DNA of 64,000 nucleotides from contig NZ_JAILWM010000002.1 in assembly GCF_025698945.1 (NCBI RefSeq), positions 1 through 64,000 of the forward strand. Direction: 5' to 3'. The notes under the pieces were generated by a model. The model was not told the DNA's origin. It was given only the letters and a program-made list of their open reading frames with translations, and did not search any database. This DNA is from Nitrosopumilus sp. (GTDB taxonomy: Archaea > Thermoproteota > Nitrososphaeria > Nitrososphaerales > Nitrosopumilaceae). Numbering within the stretch: position 1 is the first letter of the stretch; the number at the start of each line of letters is the position of its first letter. Positions 8,144 to 17,274 of the stretch are shown here, piece after piece. Both the position numbers and the translations under genes were made by a program.

Positions 8144-9343
8144 ATGACTCAAAAAGGAATTCTTGCATTTTCTGGTGGACTAGATACATCAGTTGTTGTA
8201 AAATATTTACAAGAAGAACATGACATGGATGTAATTACAGTTACAGTGGATGTTGGACAAGGAGATGATAATAAAAAAATTGCAGCAAAGGCAAAAAAGT
8301 TAGGTGTAAAAAAACATTACAACATTGATGCAAGAAAAGAATTTGTCAAAGACTATATTTTCCCATCAATTAAGGCAAATGCATTATATCAAAAAAAATA
8401 TTGTCTTGCAACAGCTCTTGCAAGACCATTGATTGCTGAAAAAGTTTTAGAGATTGCAAAAAAAGAAAAAGTCACATCACTTGCACATGGATGTTCGGGA
8501 AAAGGAAATGACCAAGTTCGTTTTGATATTACACTAAGGTCTGGATCTGATCTTCCAATCATTGCACCAATTCGAGATAAGAATTTGGATAGAGTTACAG
8601 AATTAAAGTTTGCAAAAAAACATGGAATAGAAATTGATTCTGTTGCAAAAAAATTCAGTATTGATCAAAATTTATGGGGACGTGCAATTGAAGGAGGAGT
8701 TTTAGAGGATCCATACAATGAACCACCAGATGATGCATTCATTTGGGTTAAAACAAAAAACTTACCTGATAAACCAACCTATCTAGAAATTAAATTTGAT
8801 AAAGGAATTCCAGTAGCAGTAGATGGTAAAATTATGGAATCACAAAAATTAATAGAGTATGTAAACAAAAAAGCAGGTTCTGCTGGGGTTGGAATAGTTG
8901 ATCATATTGAAGACAGAGTTGTCGGAATAAAATCAAGAGAAGTATATGAAACTCCTGCTGCAACTTGTCTAATTGAAGCACATCAAGATTTAGAAAAGAT
9001 GGTCCATACAAAACATGAAAACAAGTTCAAGTCCTTAATTGATGATGAATGGTCATATTTGGTATACTCAGGATTATGGCAAGATCCTCTAAAAACAGAT
9101 CTGGACGGATTTATTGAGGCATCACAAAAACCCGTATCAGGAACAGTCAAACTCAAGCTATACAAGGGCAGTCTCAGAGTAGTTGGAAGAAAATCAAAAA
9201 ATTCATTGTATAGTCACAATATTGCAACATATGGATCAGAATCAACTTTCGATCAAAGATTAGCTAAAGGATTTGTCGAATTGTGGGGAATGCAATCAAC
9301 AGAAGCTAATAAATTACAAAAGAAAAGGTCAACAAAAACATGA
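8144..9343 (+). CDS. argG: Argininosuccinate synthase
   Basis: A 399-residue ATP pyrophosphatase. The N-terminal SGGLDTS is the PP-loop, and the PYNEPPDDAFIW stretch is characteristic of the family. It condenses citrulline and aspartate with ATP to make argininosuccinate in arginine synthesis. It heads a tightly packed operon. Its stop overlaps the lysW start (ATGA), so it is linked directly to LysW-dependent ornithine synthesis. Full family length. argH is not in this window. Confidence 0.96.
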   Translation: MTQKGILAFSGGLDTSVVVKYLQEEHDMDVITVTVDVGQGDDNKKIAAKAKKLGVKKHYNIDARKEFVKDYIFPSIKANALYQKKYCLATALARPLIAEKVLEIAKKEKVTSLAHGCSGKGNDQVRFDITLRSGSDLPIIAPIRDKNLDRVTELKFAKKHGIEIDSVAKKFSIDQNLWGRAIEGGVLEDPYNEPPDDAFIWVKTKNLPDKPTYLEIKFDKGIPVAVDGKIMESQKLIEYVNKKAGSAGVGIVDHIEDRVVGIKSREVYETPAATCLIEAHQDLEKMVHTKHENKFKSLIDDEWSYLVYSGLWQDPLKTDLDGFIEASQKPVSGTVKLKLYKGSLRVVGRKSKNSLYSHNIATYGSESTFDQRLAKGFVELWGMQSTEANKLQKKRSTKT

Positions 9344-9507
9344 ACTGCCCAGAATGTGACGCAACACTAAACATCCCAGATGATGCCTCAGTTGGAGAAA
9401 TAGTCTCCTGTCCTGATTGTGGTGCCGACTTTGAAATCGCAAAAAAAGACGGATCAAATGTTGAGCTTAAACAAGCAGAAAGCGTAGGCGAAGACTGGGG
9501 AGAGTAA
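9340..9507 (+). CDS. lysW: LysW amino-group carrier protein, copy 1
   Basis: A 55-residue acidic carrier protein. It has a zinc ribbon from C3/C6 and C24/C27 and ends EDWGE. In known LysW systems the gamma-carboxyl of the final Glu is joined to the amino group of alpha-aminoadipate or glutamate, protecting and presenting it to later enzymes. It overlaps the end of argG (ATGA) and its stop overlaps the next start (TAATG). The neighbouring ArgX-like ligase and argG point to a main role in arginine synthesis. A second copy at 15131 differs at the last residue. Confidence 0.95.
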   Translation: MNCPECDATLNIPDDASVGEIVSCPDCGADFEIAKKDGSNVELKQAESVGEDWGE

Positions 9508-10364
9508 TGTCAAAAGTCTGTATTGTGTTTGACCGCTTAAGAGCGGAAGAAAAGATGCTCCAAAAGGAGGCATCAGAACTAGGACATGATACAGTGATGC
9601 TAGATGCAAAGATCACACAGATAAACACAGATAGTAAAAAAGCCGATTTTGATCTTGGAGATGTTGTTTTAGAGAGATGTGTTAGTTATTTTAGAGGTCT
9701 TCACTTTACTGCAAGTTTAGAATTCCTAGACATACCAGTTCTTAACAAATTTGAAGTTGCAAATATTTGTGGAAACAAAATGTTCATGACTTTACTTTTA
9801 AAGAAAAATAATATTCCTACTCCTAAAACATATTTTTCATTTTCAAGTGAGAGTGCAGCTGAGAATTTAGAAAAAGTTGGATTTCCATTAGTCATCAAAC
9901 CAGTAATTGGTAGTTGGGGAAGAGGAATAATGCCAATTAAGGATAAAGATACAATGGACGCAGTTTTTGAAATAAGAGATATCACAGATAGCCCACATGA
10001 TAGAATTTACTATTTGCAAGAAGTTATCAAAAGACCTCCAAGAGATATCCGAGTAATTACAATTGGAGATGAGCCTATTGCAGCCATGTATAGAAAATCT
10101 TCAGGTGGCTTTAAAACGAATATTGCATTAGGAGCAGATCCAGAACTTTGTGAGATCACAAAAGACATGGAAGATCTTGCCAGTAAAGCTTCCAAAGCCA
10201 TGGGGAGTGGCATTTTAGGAATAGACATGATGGAGGATGAGAAAAGAGGTTTAGTTGTTCATGAAGTAAATAATACTGTAGAATTCAAAGGATTAGCAAG
10301 AGTTGCCAAGCAAAATATACCAAAAAAAATGGTAGAATTTGCGCTAGACTACGTTAGGAAATAA
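9507..10364 (+). CDS. argX: LysW ligase, probably ArgX (glutamate-specific)
   Basis: A 285-residue ATP-grasp ligase of the LysX/ArgX/RimK type. It has YFRGLHFTASLE early, the PVIGSWGRG nucleotide loop and the metal-binding HEVNNTVEFK near the C-terminus. It joins an amino acid to the C-terminal carboxyl of LysW. The substrate segment here is SGGFKTN, whereas the paralogue at 15295 has GNWKTN. From memory, Thermus LysX has Trp at this place and glutamate-specific ArgX has Phe or similar. Together with its place between argG and argC, this favours glutamate. The assignment of the two copies is an inference. Confidence 0.82.
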   Translation: MSKVCIVFDRLRAEEKMLQKEASELGHDTVMLDAKITQINTDSKKADFDLGDVVLERCVSYFRGLHFTASLEFLDIPVLNKFEVANICGNKMFMTLLLKKNNIPTPKTYFSFSSESAAENLEKVGFPLVIKPVIGSWGRGIMPIKDKDTMDAVFEIRDITDSPHDRIYYLQEVIKRPPRDIRVITIGDEPIAAMYRKSSGGFKTNIALGADPELCEITKDMEDLASKASKAMGSGILGIDMMEDEKRGLVVHEVNNTVEFKGLARVAKQNIPKKMVEFALDYVRK

Positions 10365-10392: not shown

Positions 10393-11439
10393 ATGAAAGT
10401 AGGTGTTGTAGGAGCATCAGGTTATGTAGGTGGAGAGACACTCCGTCTTCTTGTTAATCATCCAGATGTCGAGATATCCATGGTAACATCAAGACAACAT
10501 GTAGGAGAATATCTACACAGAGTTCAACCAAGCTTAAAGGGATTTACCGATCTAACATTTTCAGAATTAGACTATGACAAGTTAACGGACAAATGTGATC
10601 TTGTATTTACTGCAGTACCTCATGGAACTGCCACTGAAATAGTAAAAGCCCTCTACGACAGAGGCATAAAAATAATTGATTTGAGTGCAGATTATAGATT
10701 ACATGACCAGGATGCATACGATAAATGGTATGGATGGGAACACCCACATCCTGATTATTTAGCAAAATCAGTTTTTGGAGTTCCTGAATTACATAGAGAG
10801 GCAATTAAAAAAGCACAACTAGTTTCATGTCCAGGTTGTATGGCAGTAACATCAATGTTAGCCCTTGCACCATTAATTCGAAATGATATCATCGATACGG
10901 ATCATATTGTAGTGGATTCAAAAATTGGGTCCTCTGGAGCAGGGTCTGGTTCAGGAACAGCACATGCAATGAGAGCAGGGGTGATTAGACCATACAAACC
11001 AGCAAAGCATAGACACACAGGCGAAATAGAACAAGAACTAAGTGAAATTGCAGGAAAGAAAATACATGTTTCAATGAGTCCACATGCAGTAGATGTTGTT
11101 CGTGGAATTTTATGTACAAATCACACATTTATGAAAAAAGATATTGAAGAAAAAGAGCTGTGGAAATTATATCGTCAAGCTTATGGCGAAGAGAAGTTCA
11201 TTAGACTGATCAGAGATAAAAAAGGATTATACAAATTCCCAGATCCAAAGTTTTTGGTTGGTTCAAACTTTTGTGACATAGGATTTGATATTGACGAAGA
11301 CAATAATAGATTAATTGCACTATCTGCATCGGACAATCTGATGAAAGGTGCTGCAGGTTCTGCCATTCAAAACATGAATGTAATGTGTGGTTTTGATGAA
11401 ATGAATGGACTCAGATACACACCGTTAACTCCTGTTTAG
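10393..11439 (+). CDS. argC: LysW-glutamyl/aminoadipyl phosphate reductase (ArgC/LysY)
   Basis: A 348-residue NAD(P)-dependent semialdehyde dehydrogenase. The N-terminal GVVGASGYVGGETLRLL binds nucleotide, and the active-site Cys is in VSCPGCMAV. It reduces the LysW-linked acyl phosphate to the semialdehyde. With only one copy in the window, it probably serves both the arginine and lysine branches. It is preceded by a strong Shine-Dalgarno AGGAGGT six bases before ATG. Confidence 0.92.
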   Translation: MKVGVVGASGYVGGETLRLLVNHPDVEISMVTSRQHVGEYLHRVQPSLKGFTDLTFSELDYDKLTDKCDLVFTAVPHGTATEIVKALYDRGIKIIDLSADYRLHDQDAYDKWYGWEHPHPDYLAKSVFGVPELHREAIKKAQLVSCPGCMAVTSMLALAPLIRNDIIDTDHIVVDSKIGSSGAGSGSGTAHAMRAGVIRPYKPAKHRHTGEIEQELSEIAGKKIHVSMSPHAVDVVRGILCTNHTFMKKDIEEKELWKLYRQAYGEEKFIRLIRDKKGLYKFPDPKFLVGSNFCDIGFDIDEDNNRLIALSASDNLMKGAAGSAIQNMNVMCGFDEMNGLRYTPLTPV

Positions 11440-11441
11440 AA

Positions 11442-12245
11442 ATGATCACAATCAAAATTGGTGGAAGCGTTGTTGATAATTTACATCCATCTACAATTTC
11501 AGACATAAAAAAAGTTTCAGAAACTGAGGGAGTAATTTTAGTTCACGGTGGAGGAAAAGAAGTTACAAAAGTTTGCGAACAATTAGGAAAAGAACCAAAA
11601 TTTGTAACATCACCAAGTGGAATCAAAAGCAGATACACTGACAAAGAAACAGCAGAAATTTTTACAATGGTAATGTCTGGCAGAATCAACAAAACCATTG
11701 TTCAAATGCTTCAAAAAAATGGAATTAATGCAATTGGACTTTCCGGAGTAGATGCAAAAATAATAGAAGCAGATAGAAAAAAGAAACTTCTAATTGTAAA
11801 TGAAAAAGGCCGAAAACAAGCAATTGATGGCGGTTATACAGGTAAAATCAGAGATGTAAATGCGAAATTTATCAAGTTGCTCTTAGAGCAAGGGCTCACT
11901 CCAGTTATTTCACCAATAGCAATTAGCGAAGAATCAGAATTTCTAAATGTAGATGGAGATAGAGCAGCTGCATATGTCGCAGGGAAAGTAGGAAGTGACA
12001 AAGTATTGTTCATCACAAATGTAGATGGGCTTTTAATCGATGAGAAACTCGTTACTAATCTAACATTGGCTGAAGCAAAAGAGATCAGACCTAAAATTGG
12101 TCCTGGTATGGAGAAAAAAATACTTGCGTCAACTGAAGCCTTAGATATGGGGGTAAAAGAAGCATTAATTGCTAATGGTCAAAAAGAAAATCCAATATCA
12201 TCTGCAATTGCACATGATAATTGTACGGTGATCAAACATGAGTGA
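11442..12245 (+). CDS. argB: LysW-glutamate/aminoadipate kinase (ArgB/LysZ)
   Basis: A 267-residue amino acid kinase. It has the N-terminal IKIGGSV lysine motif and VHGGGKEV phosphate loop, and later ISPIAISEES and NVDGDRAAAYVA. It phosphorylates the side-chain carboxyl of the LysW-linked substrate before ArgC/LysY. It starts two bases after argC stops and overlaps argD by 8 bp. Probably bifunctional for arginine and lysine, as in other archaea with a single copy. Confidence 0.92.
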   Translation: MITIKIGGSVVDNLHPSTISDIKKVSETEGVILVHGGGKEVTKVCEQLGKEPKFVTSPSGIKSRYTDKETAEIFTMVMSGRINKTIVQMLQKNGINAIGLSGVDAKIIEADRKKKLLIVNEKGRKQAIDGGYTGKIRDVNAKFIKLLLEQGLTPVISPIAISEESEFLNVDGDRAAAYVAGKVGSDKVLFITNVDGLLIDEKLVTNLTLAEAKEIRPKIGPGMEKKILASTEALDMGVKEALIANGQKENPISSAIAHDNCTVIKHE

Positions 12246-13413
12246 AGATCAATTCATGGGAAATCTCTATCAGAGATTTCCAGTTACTATTGAAAAAGGA
12301 GTAGGAGCTCATGTTTGGGATATTGACGGAAAAGAATACATTGATTGTATGGGAGGATATGGTGTTTCATTAGTCGGTCATCAGAATCAAAGAGTAAATA
12401 ATGCAATAAAAGAACAAATCGATAAAATAATTACAGTGCACAGTTCACTGTACAATAAAACTAGAGAAGAATTTTTAAAATTACTAATAGGATTAGCTCC
12501 AAAAGGACTAACACAAGTTCATTTAAACAACAGCGGTGCAGAAGCAATTGAAGCTGCAATAAAGTTTGCAAGAAAATTTACAGGAAAAAAAGGAATGGTT
12601 GCAATGAAAGGATCCTATCATGGAAAATCATTTGGAGCTTTATCATTAACATTTAATCCAAAATACAAAAAAGCATTTGAACCACTTGTGGAGAAAGTTT
12701 CATTTGCATCATTTGGCGACATACAATCACTTCGTGAAGTGATTGATGATGATACAGCATTTGTGATTTTAGAACCAATTCAAGGAGAGAGTGGAATTAA
12801 TGTTGCACCAGATGGATTTTTGCAAGATGTTAGAAAACTCTGTGATGAAAAAGGAATTCTGTTAATTTTTGACGAAATACAAGCAGGATTGGGGAGAACA
12901 GGACGATTATGGGCATGTGACCATTGGAACACAGCACCAGATATTTTATGTCTTGCAAAAGGAATTGCAGGAGGAGTTCCAATGGGTGCAACACTAGTAA
13001 GACCAGATATACTTGCAGCAATGAGTAAAGGAGAGCATTCTTCAACATTTGGAGGCAATCCAATTTCATGCGCTGCAGGAATAGCAGCATTAAAAGCATT
13101 GACTGAAGATGGCTTGATTGAAAATTCTGAAAAGATGGGGAAATTATTCAGAGAGGGTTTAGAGAAACTAAAAGAAAAACACACCATGATTAGAGAAATT
13201 CGTGGAAAGGGATTAATGATTGGAGTTGAGATGAAATTTGAAGTCAGAGACATACTAATGGGTTTAATTAAAGAAGGAGTTCTAATGCTTTATTCAGGGC
13301 GAAATATACTAAGAATTTTACCACCATTAGTAATTACCGAAGATGACATAACAAAAGTTTTACATGCTCTAGATTCTGTATTAACAAAAGAGGAAGAAAA
13401 GAGAGATGTATAA
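12238..13413 (+). CDS. argD: LysW-semialdehyde aminotransferase (ArgD/LysJ)
   Basis: A 391-residue class III PLP aminotransferase. NNSGAEAIEAAIK binds the cofactor phosphate, IFDEIQAGLGRTG holds the PLP-contacting Asp, and CLAKGIAGG contains the Schiff-base Lys. It transaminates LysW-gamma-glutamate or -aminoadipate semialdehyde with glutamate. It overlaps both neighbours by 8 bp, so it is translationally coupled in the operon. A long antisense open frame inside it is a codon-bias shadow. Confidence 0.93.
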   Translation: MSEDQFMGNLYQRFPVTIEKGVGAHVWDIDGKEYIDCMGGYGVSLVGHQNQRVNNAIKEQIDKIITVHSSLYNKTREEFLKLLIGLAPKGLTQVHLNNSGAEAIEAAIKFARKFTGKKGMVAMKGSYHGKSFGALSLTFNPKYKKAFEPLVEKVSFASFGDIQSLREVIDDDTAFVILEPIQGESGINVAPDGFLQDVRKLCDEKGILLIFDEIQAGLGRTGRLWACDHWNTAPDILCLAKGIAGGVPMGATLVRPDILAAMSKGEHSSTFGGNPISCAAGIAALKALTEDGLIENSEKMGKLFREGLEKLKEKHTMIREIRGKGLMIGVEMKFEVRDILMGLIKEGVLMLYSGRNILRILPPLVITEDDITKVLHALDSVLTKEEEKRDV

Positions 13414-13941: not shown

Positions 13942-15108
13942 ATGAAAGATCCGAATCACTATGCAAACATCTACAATGCATACGATAAAAATCCAAAGAA
14001 AATCAAGGTATTAGATAGTACCTTAAGAGAAGGAGAACAACATCCAGGTGTTTCTTTTACAAGTAAGCAAAGAATTCAGATTGCATGGATGTTAGATTAT
14101 TTTGGAGTTGATCAAATTGAAATTTCGCCTGTTGTATCTAGTGATCATAAAGAAGCAACTAAAACAATAATCAAACAAGGACTCAAGGCAGATATTGTTT
14201 CACATGGACGTGCACTCAAAGAAGATATTGATGTGTCATTGGATTGTGATGCAAAATGGTGTGCGGCATATTTAGGAATTTCAGATATTCATCTTAAAGA
14301 CAAATTAAGAATTTCTAGAGAGCAAGCACTTGAGAGAGCTGTTGAAACTGTAGAATATGCAAAATCACATGGACTAAAAATTAGATTCACAGTTGAAGAT
14401 GGAAGCAGAGCAGAGCCAGAATTTTTACTAAAAGTATGTAAAGCAATTGAAGAGGTAGGAGTCGATAGAATTAGTCTTCCAGATACTGTTGGTATTTTAC
14501 GACCTATTGGAATGTATAATTTTGTTAAAAAAGTCAGAGACGTAGTCGATGTACCCCTTGATGCACATGTTCATAATGATATTGGGTTTGCAGTAGCAAA
14601 TGCATTTTCTGCGTGTGATGCTGGAGTGGACCAAATCCATACAACAATTGATGGTATAGGGGAAAGAACTGGAATTCCACCACTTGCAGAAGTTGCAGTA
14701 GCATTAACATATTTGTACAAATCACCAAATGATTTCAGATTAGATATGCTACTAGATCTTTCAAGATTAATTGAAGATTATACATCAATAAAACCATATG
14801 ATTCAAAACCTATTGTAGGTTCATCGGCATACAAACACAAAGCAGGAACACATCTTGCCGCAATTCTTAGAAATCCAGCAGCATACGAGCCAATTCCTCC
14901 AAGAGCAGTGGGAAATAGGAGAAGAATTGTCTTTGGAGAATTAGCTGGTAAAACTGGTGCTGCCTACTTGATGTCATTATTGGGACTTGAAAAAGATGAT
15001 GAGGGTGCAAAGGCAGTAGCAGCCGGACTAAAGAGTCTCAGAATGGGGGATCTAATTGAAATACCATTGGAAGACAGACTTGAAAAAAGGATAATTAATG
15101 ATAAATAA
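13942..15108 (+). CDS. Homocitrate synthase (LysS type)
   Basis: A 388-residue DRE-TIM metallolyase. It begins KVLDSTLREGEQHPGV with the catalytic Arg and metal Asp. DAHVHNDIG supplies the metal-binding HxH, and GIGERTG follows. These motifs fit homocitrate synthase better than 2-isopropylmalate or citramalate synthase, and the genes that follow (lysW, lysX, lysK) confirm a lysine role. It condenses acetyl-CoA with 2-oxoglutarate, the first committed step of the aminoadipate pathway. Homoaconitase and homoisocitrate dehydrogenase are not in the window. Confidence 0.9.
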   Translation: MKDPNHYANIYNAYDKNPKKIKVLDSTLREGEQHPGVSFTSKQRIQIAWMLDYFGVDQIEISPVVSSDHKEATKTIIKQGLKADIVSHGRALKEDIDVSLDCDAKWCAAYLGISDIHLKDKLRISREQALERAVETVEYAKSHGLKIRFTVEDGSRAEPEFLLKVCKAIEEVGVDRISLPDTVGILRPIGMYNFVKKVRDVVDVPLDAHVHNDIGFAVANAFSACDAGVDQIHTTIDGIGERTGIPPLAEVAVALTYLYKSPNDFRLDMLLDLSRLIEDYTSIKPYDSKPIVGSSAYKHKAGTHLAAILRNPAAYEPIPPRAVGNRRRIVFGELAGKTGAAYLMSLLGLEKDDEGAKAVAAGLKSLRMGDLIEIPLEDRLEKRIINDK

Positions 15109-15130: not shown

Positions 15131-15298
15131 ATGTCAAAATGTGAAGAATGTGATGCAGAGATTTCCATACCAAGTGACGCACTTGAAGGAGAGATTGTAA
15201 CATGTCCGGAATGTGGCGCAAGTTTTGAATTAGCAAAAGGTTCAGACGGTTTCGATCTAAAGCCTGCCCAAACGGTTGGCGAGGATTGGGGGCAGTGA
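15131..15298 (+). CDS. lysW: LysW-like carrier protein, copy 2, ending in Gln
   Basis: A 55-residue protein, the same length as copy 1, with zinc-ribbon cysteines C4/C7 and C25/C28 and a conserved acidic tail. The last five residues are EDWGQ, read from codons gag gat tgg ggg cag before tga. In characterised LysW proteins the last residue is Glu and its gamma-carboxyl carries the substrate, so a genetically encoded Gln is unexpected. The gene lies between homocitrate synthase and a LysX-type ligase, whose GTG start overlaps the lysW stop (GTGA). It may be deamidated, be inactive as a carrier, or contain a sequence error. Confidence 0.88.
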   Translation: MSKCEECDAEISIPSDALEGEIVTCPECGASFELAKGSDGFDLKPAQTVGEDWGQ

Positions 15299-16143
15299 GT
15301 CCTGACGTTACGATTCTTTATGATACCATCCGTTGGGAAGAAAAAGCTCTATTAGAATCAGGTAAAAAAAACAACATAAACATCCAGATGGTAGATTGTA
15401 AGAAACTTGCATTAGATTTAGAAAAAAAACCAGAAGATTATGGAATAGTTATTCAAAGATGTGTTAGTTACTATAGAAATCTTCATTCAACTGCAGCTCT
15501 AGAGGGACTAGGAGTTAAAGTAATCAATTGTCTTAACACAGGAGTATTTGCAGGAAATAAATTATTTACACATATGCTTCTAAAAAAATTTGGTGTGCCA
15601 ACGCCTGATGCAACTGTTGCCTTTTCAAAAGATGCAGCGTTAGAAGCATTAGATGTGCATGGTTATCCTAAAGTCATCAAACCAACAGTTGGCAGTTGGG
15701 GAAGATTAATTTCAAAATTAAATGATCGAGATTCAGCTGAGGGAATTATTGAAAGCAGAGAAAACATGTATCCAATTTATCAAATTCATTATCTAGAAGA
15801 ATTTGTTCAAAGACCTCCAAGAGATATCCGAGCAATAATGGTAGGCGATAAGATTGTGGCTGCAATTTACAGGACATCAGGGAATGGGAATTGGAAAACA
15901 AATATGGCACTTGGTGGAATTGCAGAGCCATGCAAAGTTACATCAGAGATGGAAGAGATGTGTATTAAGGCTAAAAATGCAGTTCAGGGGGATATTGTAG
16001 GGGTGGATTTGATGGAAAGTGATGAAAAAGGATTAGTTGTTCATGAGGTTAACAATACTACAGAATACAAAAACACCGTTAGAGTATGTGAAGTTGATAT
16101 TCCTTCTTTAATGTTAGATTATGCAATAAAGGTAGACAAGTAA
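15295..16143 (+). CDS. lysX: LysW ligase, probably LysX (alpha-aminoadipate-specific)
   Basis: An ATP-grasp ligase paralogous to the 9507 gene, with YYRNLHSTAALE, PTVGSWGRL and the metal-binding HEVNNTTEYK. The substrate loop GNWKTN differs from GGFKTN in the other copy and resembles Thermus LysX as I remember it. It would link alpha-aminoadipate to LysW. I start it at GTG 15295 (overlapping the lysW stop) instead of the in-frame TTG at 15286; this gives 282 residues, like the paralogue. Confidence 0.85.
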   Translation: MSPDVTILYDTIRWEEKALLESGKKNNINIQMVDCKKLALDLEKKPEDYGIVIQRCVSYYRNLHSTAALEGLGVKVINCLNTGVFAGNKLFTHMLLKKFGVPTPDATVAFSKDAALEALDVHGYPKVIKPTVGSWGRLISKLNDRDSAEGIIESRENMYPIYQIHYLEEFVQRPPRDIRAIMVGDKIVAAIYRTSGNGNWKTNMALGGIAEPCKVTSEMEEMCIKAKNAVQGDIVGVDLMESDEKGLVVHEVNNTTEYKNTVRVCEVDIPSLMLDYAIKVDK

Positions 16144-16146
16144 AAA

Positions 16147-17274
16147 TTGGACACACATTTTACCGTCACACCAAGATATGCAGTAAAAATGCTTGAGAAA
16201 GCACTGAGATTGTATACACCGTCACTTAGTGAAAAGCCAATGGCAGAATTTTTAGCTGATAAATGCGATGATCTTGGATTTGAAGAAATTCAAATTGATG
16301 AAGTTGGAAATATTATTGCAAAGAAGGGGTCGGGTTCGCCAAAAATTATGTTATGTGGACATATGGATGTAGTTCCAGGAAAAGTAAAGGTAAGAAAAGA
16401 AGGAGATTCATTGTATGGTCGGGGTGCATCAGATGCTAAAGCACCACTAATGGCAATGTTATTTGCAGCAGCTTCTATTCAAAATAATAACGGAACCGTA
16501 TTTTTTGTAGGAGCAGTTGATGAAGAAGGCAATGCAACTGGAATTAAAAATTTAGTTAAAAAAAAGATAGGAATTGATTATGCAATTTTTGGAGAACCAA
16601 GTGGAATTAAACAAGTAACAATTGCATACAAAGGAAGACTGGCAATTAATCTAAAGATCAGTGTGGATGATAGTTCACATGCAAGTGCACCATGGCTCTC
16701 AAAAAACGCCATACAAGAATCAATAATTTTTGCAAAAGAACTCAAAGACAAATTAGAGGATGGACAAGATGAAAAATCAAAAGGAATGTTGTTAACAGCA
16801 ACAATGACTGAAATCAAGGGTGGAACAAGTCATAATGTAACCCCAAAAGATTGTGAAACTACTTTTGATATACGAATCCCAGTTGATATGGATTGTAAAA
16901 CTGTTGAACAAAAAATTGCAACGCTGGTTAAAGAGATAGCACAAAAAAGAGAAGTAGAGGCATTTTATTCAATTCTTGATGAAACTGAACCATTTGAGGC
17001 GCCTCATAATTCATCTCTAGTGAGGGCTTTCACGCTAGGAATAATGGAAGTTGAGAATTCAAGACCTTCATTAATAAGAAAAACAGGTACTGGAGACATG
17101 AATGTTCTAGGAAATCAATGGCACATTCCAGTTGTCACATACGGTCCAGGTGATCCTCACGAAGCACATACAATTGATGAAAAAGTATCAATTGATGAGT
17201 ATCTACGTGGAATTGAAATTCTCAAAAAAACTCTACAGCACTTAAAAAGACTACACGATAGAAAGATGCAGTAA
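16147..17274 (+). CDS. lysK: LysW-lysine/ornithine hydrolase (LysK/ArgE family)
   Basis: A 375-residue M20-family metallohydrolase. CGHMDVVPG holds the first zinc His and catalytic Asp, DEEGNATG holds the Glu pair, and a C-terminal GPGDPHEAH motif holds the last zinc His. It releases lysine (and probably ornithine) from the LysW carrier at the pathway end. The start is TTG, three bases after lysX stops; the next ATG would cut into the fold. The stop overlaps the dphB start (TAATG). Confidence 0.9.
   Translation: MDTHFTVTPRYAVKMLEKALRLYTPSLSEKPMAEFLADKCDDLGFEEIQIDEVGNIIAKKGSGSPKIMLCGHMDVVPGKVKVRKEGDSLYGRGASDAKAPLMAMLFAAASIQNNNGTVFFVGAVDEEGNATGIKNLVKKKIGIDYAIFGEPSGIKQVTIAYKGRLAINLKISVDDSSHASAPWLSKNAIQESIIFAKELKDKLEDGQDEKSKGMLLTATMTEIKGGTSHNVTPKDCETTFDIRIPVDMDCKTVEQKIATLVKEIAQKREVEAFYSILDETEPFEAPHNSSLVRAFTLGIMEVENSRPSLIRKTGTGDMNVLGNQWHIPVVTYGPGDPHEAHTIDEKVSIDEYLRGIEILKKTLQHLKRLHDRKMQ

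Follow-up and report, generated by a model that had tools for sequence, protein, structure and literature searches.

The lysW2 gene and its terminal codon

LysW2, the predicted carrier for lysine building in ammonia-oxidizing archaea, is a glutamine-ended variant of LysW rather than an ordinary LysW, and by analogy with the Pup of Actinobacteria the terminal Gln is probably deamidated to Glu before the carrier is loaded. In the window, by which we mean the whole 64,000-nt stretch of Nitrosopumilus DNA that was analyzed, EDWG-type ends occur at two positions only, 9490–9507 (with Glu) and 15281–15298 (with Gln), the chance expectation for the pattern being 0.13 at 2 mismatches. The latter bases read GAG GAT TGG GGG CAG TGA and close the 55-codon lysW2 reading frame, which reading bears out the statement of an earlier note on this DNA that the product ends in EDWGQ. 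The description of the gene in that note as intact, with the zinc cysteines kept and a coupling to a LysX-type ligase, was confirmed as well: LysW2 scored 88.2 bits against the curated LysW/ArgW profile NF041070 (cut-off 75) and matched the Pfam family Zn_ribbon_LysW (PF21344); both CxxC pairs are kept in the translation, as CEEC and CPEC; and the GTG start of lysX2, at 15295, overlaps the lysW2 stop by four bases (GTGA). The EDWG motif is likewise present, but the residue that the gene encodes after it is Gln instead of Glu. The expected partners, a LysX-type ligase together with LysZ, LysY, LysJ, and LysK, are all found, and the features concerned are the following:

9340..9507, + strand: lysW1/argW, the paralogous carrier ending EDWGE (NF041070, 92.9 bits)
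9507..10364, + strand: lysX1, probably argX (glutamate-specific; EFKGL motif; TIGR02144, 290.1 bits; aligned to StArgX, 3VPB)
10393..13413, + strand: lysY, lysZ, and lysJ, the reductase, kinase, and aminotransferase common to both branches (argC, [LysW]-aminoadipate/glutamate kinase, and argD/LysJ models)
13942..15108, + strand: homocitrate/isopropylmalate synthase-like gene (TIGR02146, 380.5 bits, below the cut-off of 413.55; HCS_D2 domain)
15131..15298, + strand: lysW2, 55-aa zinc-ribbon amino-group carrier ending EDWGQ (NF041070, PF21344, dN/dS)
15293..15295, + strand: terminal CAG (Gln) codon of lysW2, Glu in characterized LysW (sequence and conservation)
15295..16143, + strand: lysX2, ATP-grasp LysX (TIGR02144, 321.5 bits; aligned to Thermus LysX, 3VPD)
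16147..17274, + strand: lysK, M20-family [LysW]-lysine/ornithine hydrolase (TIGR01902, 280.8 bits; aligns to Thermus LysK, 5XOY)

Gene neighborhood and ligase specificity

The genes form two clusters, the first running argG, lysW1, lysX1, lysY, lysZ, lysJ, and the second, beyond an Lrp-type regulator, comprising the homocitrate/isopropylmalate synthase-like gene, which lies immediately upstream of lysW2, followed by lysW2, lysX2, and lysK, the last of which begins three bases downstream of lysX2 and was found as a single copy in the genome. In PMC10433800, SaLysX was shifted from aminoadipate toward glutamate by an Asn-Thr to Gly-Phe change; and from the alignments to 3VPD and 3VPB we infer that the specificity pair described there lies within the motif EYKNT of LysX2, which has Asn-Thr as in SaLysX, and within EFKGL of LysX1, the corresponding motif of StArgX being EFKGF. 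Because of the Asn-Thr in the one ligase versus the Gly-Leu in the other, the motifs suggest alpha-aminoadipate as the substrate of LysX2 and glutamate as that of LysX1.

Conservation of the terminal Gln among relatives

The EDWGQ-stop pattern was found in 62 of 63 genomes sampled from the same family—27/28 of the same genus and 35/35 of the other family members—and also in 4/4 genomes of family f2 and 6/6 of family f3, while being absent from the single f4 genome; one further match, in G209, was set aside since there the pattern is followed by TGG and not by a stop. Among the relatives with named public records (n = 78), the codon was CAG in 74 and GAG in 4. A sequencing error or a recent decay in this genome, for which the earlier note had proposed the comparison with relatives as a check, is therefore refuted and retains a practically negligible probability, the same codon occurring in scores of independently sequenced genomes. 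The dN/dS of lysW2, taken as mean dN over mean dS for a sample of pairs from 79 sequences, was ~0.12, a value indicating that the gene is under purifying selection. The four GAG-bearing relatives along with G257 look like a single reversal when judged by their common sequence context, not by a tree. In those four (L174, L181, L182, and L186) CCG-ATG or CTG-ATG comes after the lysW2 TGA, which arrangement suggests a shifted lysX2 start; the TGACCG context is also present in five Gln-ended relatives.

Interchange of Glu and Gln across lineages

In a tree built from 69 LysX proteins, the Glu or Gln label requires at least six changes, all forced by well-supported branches, and in a second tree Glu-ended and Gln-ended LysW are intermixed within families f12 and f17. 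Outside the 69-protein tree, both LysW copies of G082 end in Gln; and G141 (L115/L227) carries EDYGQ amid relatives with EDYGE, which, to judge by the sequences, is an additional Glu-to-Gln case on a different motif background. Two Streptomyces plasmid homologs end in DWGQ and a Rhodococcus relative in DWGE. As read from these trees and endings, Glu and Gln have been swapped repeatedly at the LysW end across the Thermoproteota. With respect to sampling, the 60-locus set was chosen partly by the Glu/Gln patterns, whereas the named-record and the Streptomyces/Rhodococcus sets were not picked by terminal residue; nor was the set containing G141, although genomes with neither EDWG pattern were favored there.

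No terminal residue other than Glu or Gln was found among the clear LysW orthologs of the sets examined, a survey that left out the euryarchaea and most bacteria. Other single-base changes from GAG would yield Lys, Ala, Gly, Val, or Asp; that only Gln occurs besides Glu points to selection for the gamma-carbonyl, and a side chain bearing that group seems to be required at the LysW terminus. A pattern match in G032 was discarded as a chance one, lying outside any LysW reading frame, and the divergent f28 proteins with Glu-rich tails were left uncounted as LysW. Among the other loci, L123–L125 (G133, G062, and G157) encode zinc ribbons resembling LysW, whose long tails are rich in Glu and contain EEW repeatedly; L053 (G319) and L045 (G307) have Glu-ended LysW genes with no further lys/arg gene detected in the fetched stretch.

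Genomes with Gln-ended LysW only

In 19 sampled genomes the Gln-ended LysW was the sole kind found, although drafts may miss a copy (G082, G209, G221, G322, G350, G386, G137, G141, G017, G049, G134, G009, G025, G033, G041, G057, G122, G128, and G152). Of those whose locus was fetched, all have LysK, and most keep the ligase, kinase, reductase, and aminotransferase genes, the set of pathway genes checked differing from genome to genome so that not each gene was covered in every one. Three single-contig f3 genomes (G209, G322, and G350; L062, L065, and L066) possess LysX1, LysX2, and LysK. In these three, lysX1 adjoins argG without a lysW1, and one Gln-ended LysW was found per genome; by their gene content, that single carrier probably serves both ligases.

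Proposed mechanism

Since the terminal Gln is conserved and recurrent, the cell must either convert it or load LysW2 in another way. We propose that LysW2 would be the working amino-group carrier of the lysine branch, made as a Gln-ended pro-form whose last residue an amidase would turn into Glu with the release of ammonia; LysX2 would then join alpha-aminoadipate to the new gamma-carboxyl; LysZ, LysY, and LysJ would transform the bound substrate; and LysK would free the lysine. An ATP-grasp ligase needs a free carboxylate to activate, and since the Gln amide offers none, deamidation would be the simplest route. As to the amidase, the likeliest enzyme would be LysK, an assignment that we hold tentatively and at somewhat less than even chances: LysK cuts the gamma-glutamyl amide at the terminal residue of LysW, and the deamidation would be its usual cut at that same residue, with ammonia as the leaving group. 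To our knowledge, no deamidase activity of LysK has been described. LysK scored above the cut-off in 29/29 of the tested genomes that bear a Gln-ended LysW. The two controls with Glu only have it as well, and since LysK also accompanies a Glu-ended LysW, its presence does not by itself mark it as the deamidase.

In the haloarchaeon Natrinema gari, the argW E54A mutation results in arginine auxotrophy (PMC10433800), so that the terminal side chain of ArgW is needed; and in Actinobacteria Dop deamidates Pup-Gln, presumably by means of its depupylase activity (PMC12288473). If the Gln brought no benefit, the family-wide 62/63 would be hard to square with free interchangeability; as ideas for so strict a Gln, we consider a pro-form that prevents premature loading, or a tie to nitrogen status.

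Alternative explanations

The deamidation could be the work of a separate amidase encoded elsewhere (e.g., a class I glutaminase, a nitrilase, or an asparaginase-like enzyme), which alternative opposes the LysK step only—its probability thus overlapping with our confidence in deamidation as such—and which we regard as possible, though on balance unlikely. In Streptomyces and Rhodococcus, clusters whose LysW ends in Gln or in Glu have a gene annotated as one of the gamma-glutamyl-GABA hydrolase family, so that other amidases can go with such carriers. Yet among the 60 fetched loci no gene family beyond the lys/arg genes goes with Gln rather than with Glu, so that no extra family tracks the Gln-ended copies; a profile search for Dop/PafA (Pup_ligase family, PF03136) gave no match in this genome; and the frequent swaps between Glu and Gln among close relatives fit an amidase present in every LysW organism. 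A loading of Gln-ended LysW without any Glu stage, either through a ligase or hydrolase that puts the amino group of the substrate in place of the amide or with an ammonia release that gates lysine synthesis by nitrogen sensing, appears to us improbable. The narrower form, in which LysX2 or a partner would use the Gln directly, exchanging its amide for the aminoadipate amino group and freeing ammonia with no free Glu being formed, we consider more doubtful still: the Gln-only genomes retain LysX, LysX2 keeps the GSWGR motif in 9/9 aligned sequences, and PafA is reported to move Pup between substrates, but that same enzyme is unable to deamidate Pup-Gln (PMC12288473), and the ligases that go with Glu-ended copies are close relatives of those that go with Gln-ended ones (G137 versus G095, G128 versus G104). 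The requirement of ATP-grasp ligases for a free carboxylate likewise speaks against direct use of the amide.

That LysW2 is uncharged, being inactive or regulatory, with LysW1 serving both pathways, would have a precedent in Sulfolobus, where one LysW is paired with both ArgX and LysX (PMC10433800). Against that proposal stand the Gln-only genomes, with the three single-contig f3 genomes among them, the purifying selection, and the overlap with a ligase gene bearing an aminoadipate-type motif; we therefore deem it highly unlikely. Since the 19 genomes keep the arginine and lysine machinery examined, service of both branches by LysW1 fails as a general answer, and the inactive copy that the earlier note had offered as one option is contradicted to that extent, while its other option, deamidation before loading, stands as the best-supported reading. 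Finally, the CAG might be kept for the start or translation signal of lysX2 rather than for the protein: the lysX2 GTG does overlap the lysW2 stop, and the four GAG reversions sit where TGA precedes CCG-ATG or CTG-ATG. The C of the CAG falls outside lysX2, however, and in f2, f3, f12, and f17 the Gln codon is either CAA or CAG, the stop after it is TAA, TAG, or TGA, and in several cases there is no such overlap; these non-overlapping Gln-ended genes contradict a retention for the lysX2 start and leave that explanation with only a very slight probability.

Significance and comparison with known systems

Within the open-access literature, subscription papers being outside the search, we found no paper containing "EDWGQ" and none joining LysW with Pup (and ubiquitin); a Nitrosopumilus model paper, in the portion available, handles LysW as ordinary (PMC6038301). 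LysW works through its terminal Glu, and a Gln conserved at that position predicts that the Pup logic, by which a carrier is produced blocked and then switched on by deamidation, exists a second time and independently, in archaea that are abundant and in the biosynthesis of amino acids; it also points to a testable candidate enzyme, LysK. Pathway models that load LysW directly may omit a step; and the direct loading of a Gln-ended LysW, if true, would constitute new carrier-loading chemistry.

The LysW/ArgW proteins of Thermus, Sulfolobus, Thermococcus, and Natrinema share with LysW2 their size, the zinc ribbon, and the EDWG motif and are likewise coupled to LysX and to the LysZ/Y/J/K pathway, but they end in Glu, whose gamma-carboxyl bears the substrate in the characterized cases listed in PMC10433800, whereas LysW2 ends in Gln. 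The LysW-like clusters of Streptomyces and Rhodococcus plasmids, predicted to be biosynthetic, contain LysW, RimK-type ligase, ArgC, and kinase genes as here, with carriers distant in sequence from LysW2; in L220, L221, and L222 the gamma-glutamyl-GABA hydrolase family is annotated, and the stretch shown has no gene annotated as an M20 LysK. Pup, for its part, is like LysW a small protein whose terminal residue is Gln or Glu according to the species, being Gln in mycobacteria and Glu in many others (PMC12288473), and such an alternation between species is present in LysW as well, as seen in the trees and the named-record relatives. The two systems differ in ligase family and cargo, and the parallel is one of logic and not of homology because the search of this genome turned up no Dop-type enzyme. 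In the Pup system the Gln must turn into Glu before ligation, and the isopeptide hydrolase doubles as the deamidase; for LysW2, that same deamidation is what we propose.
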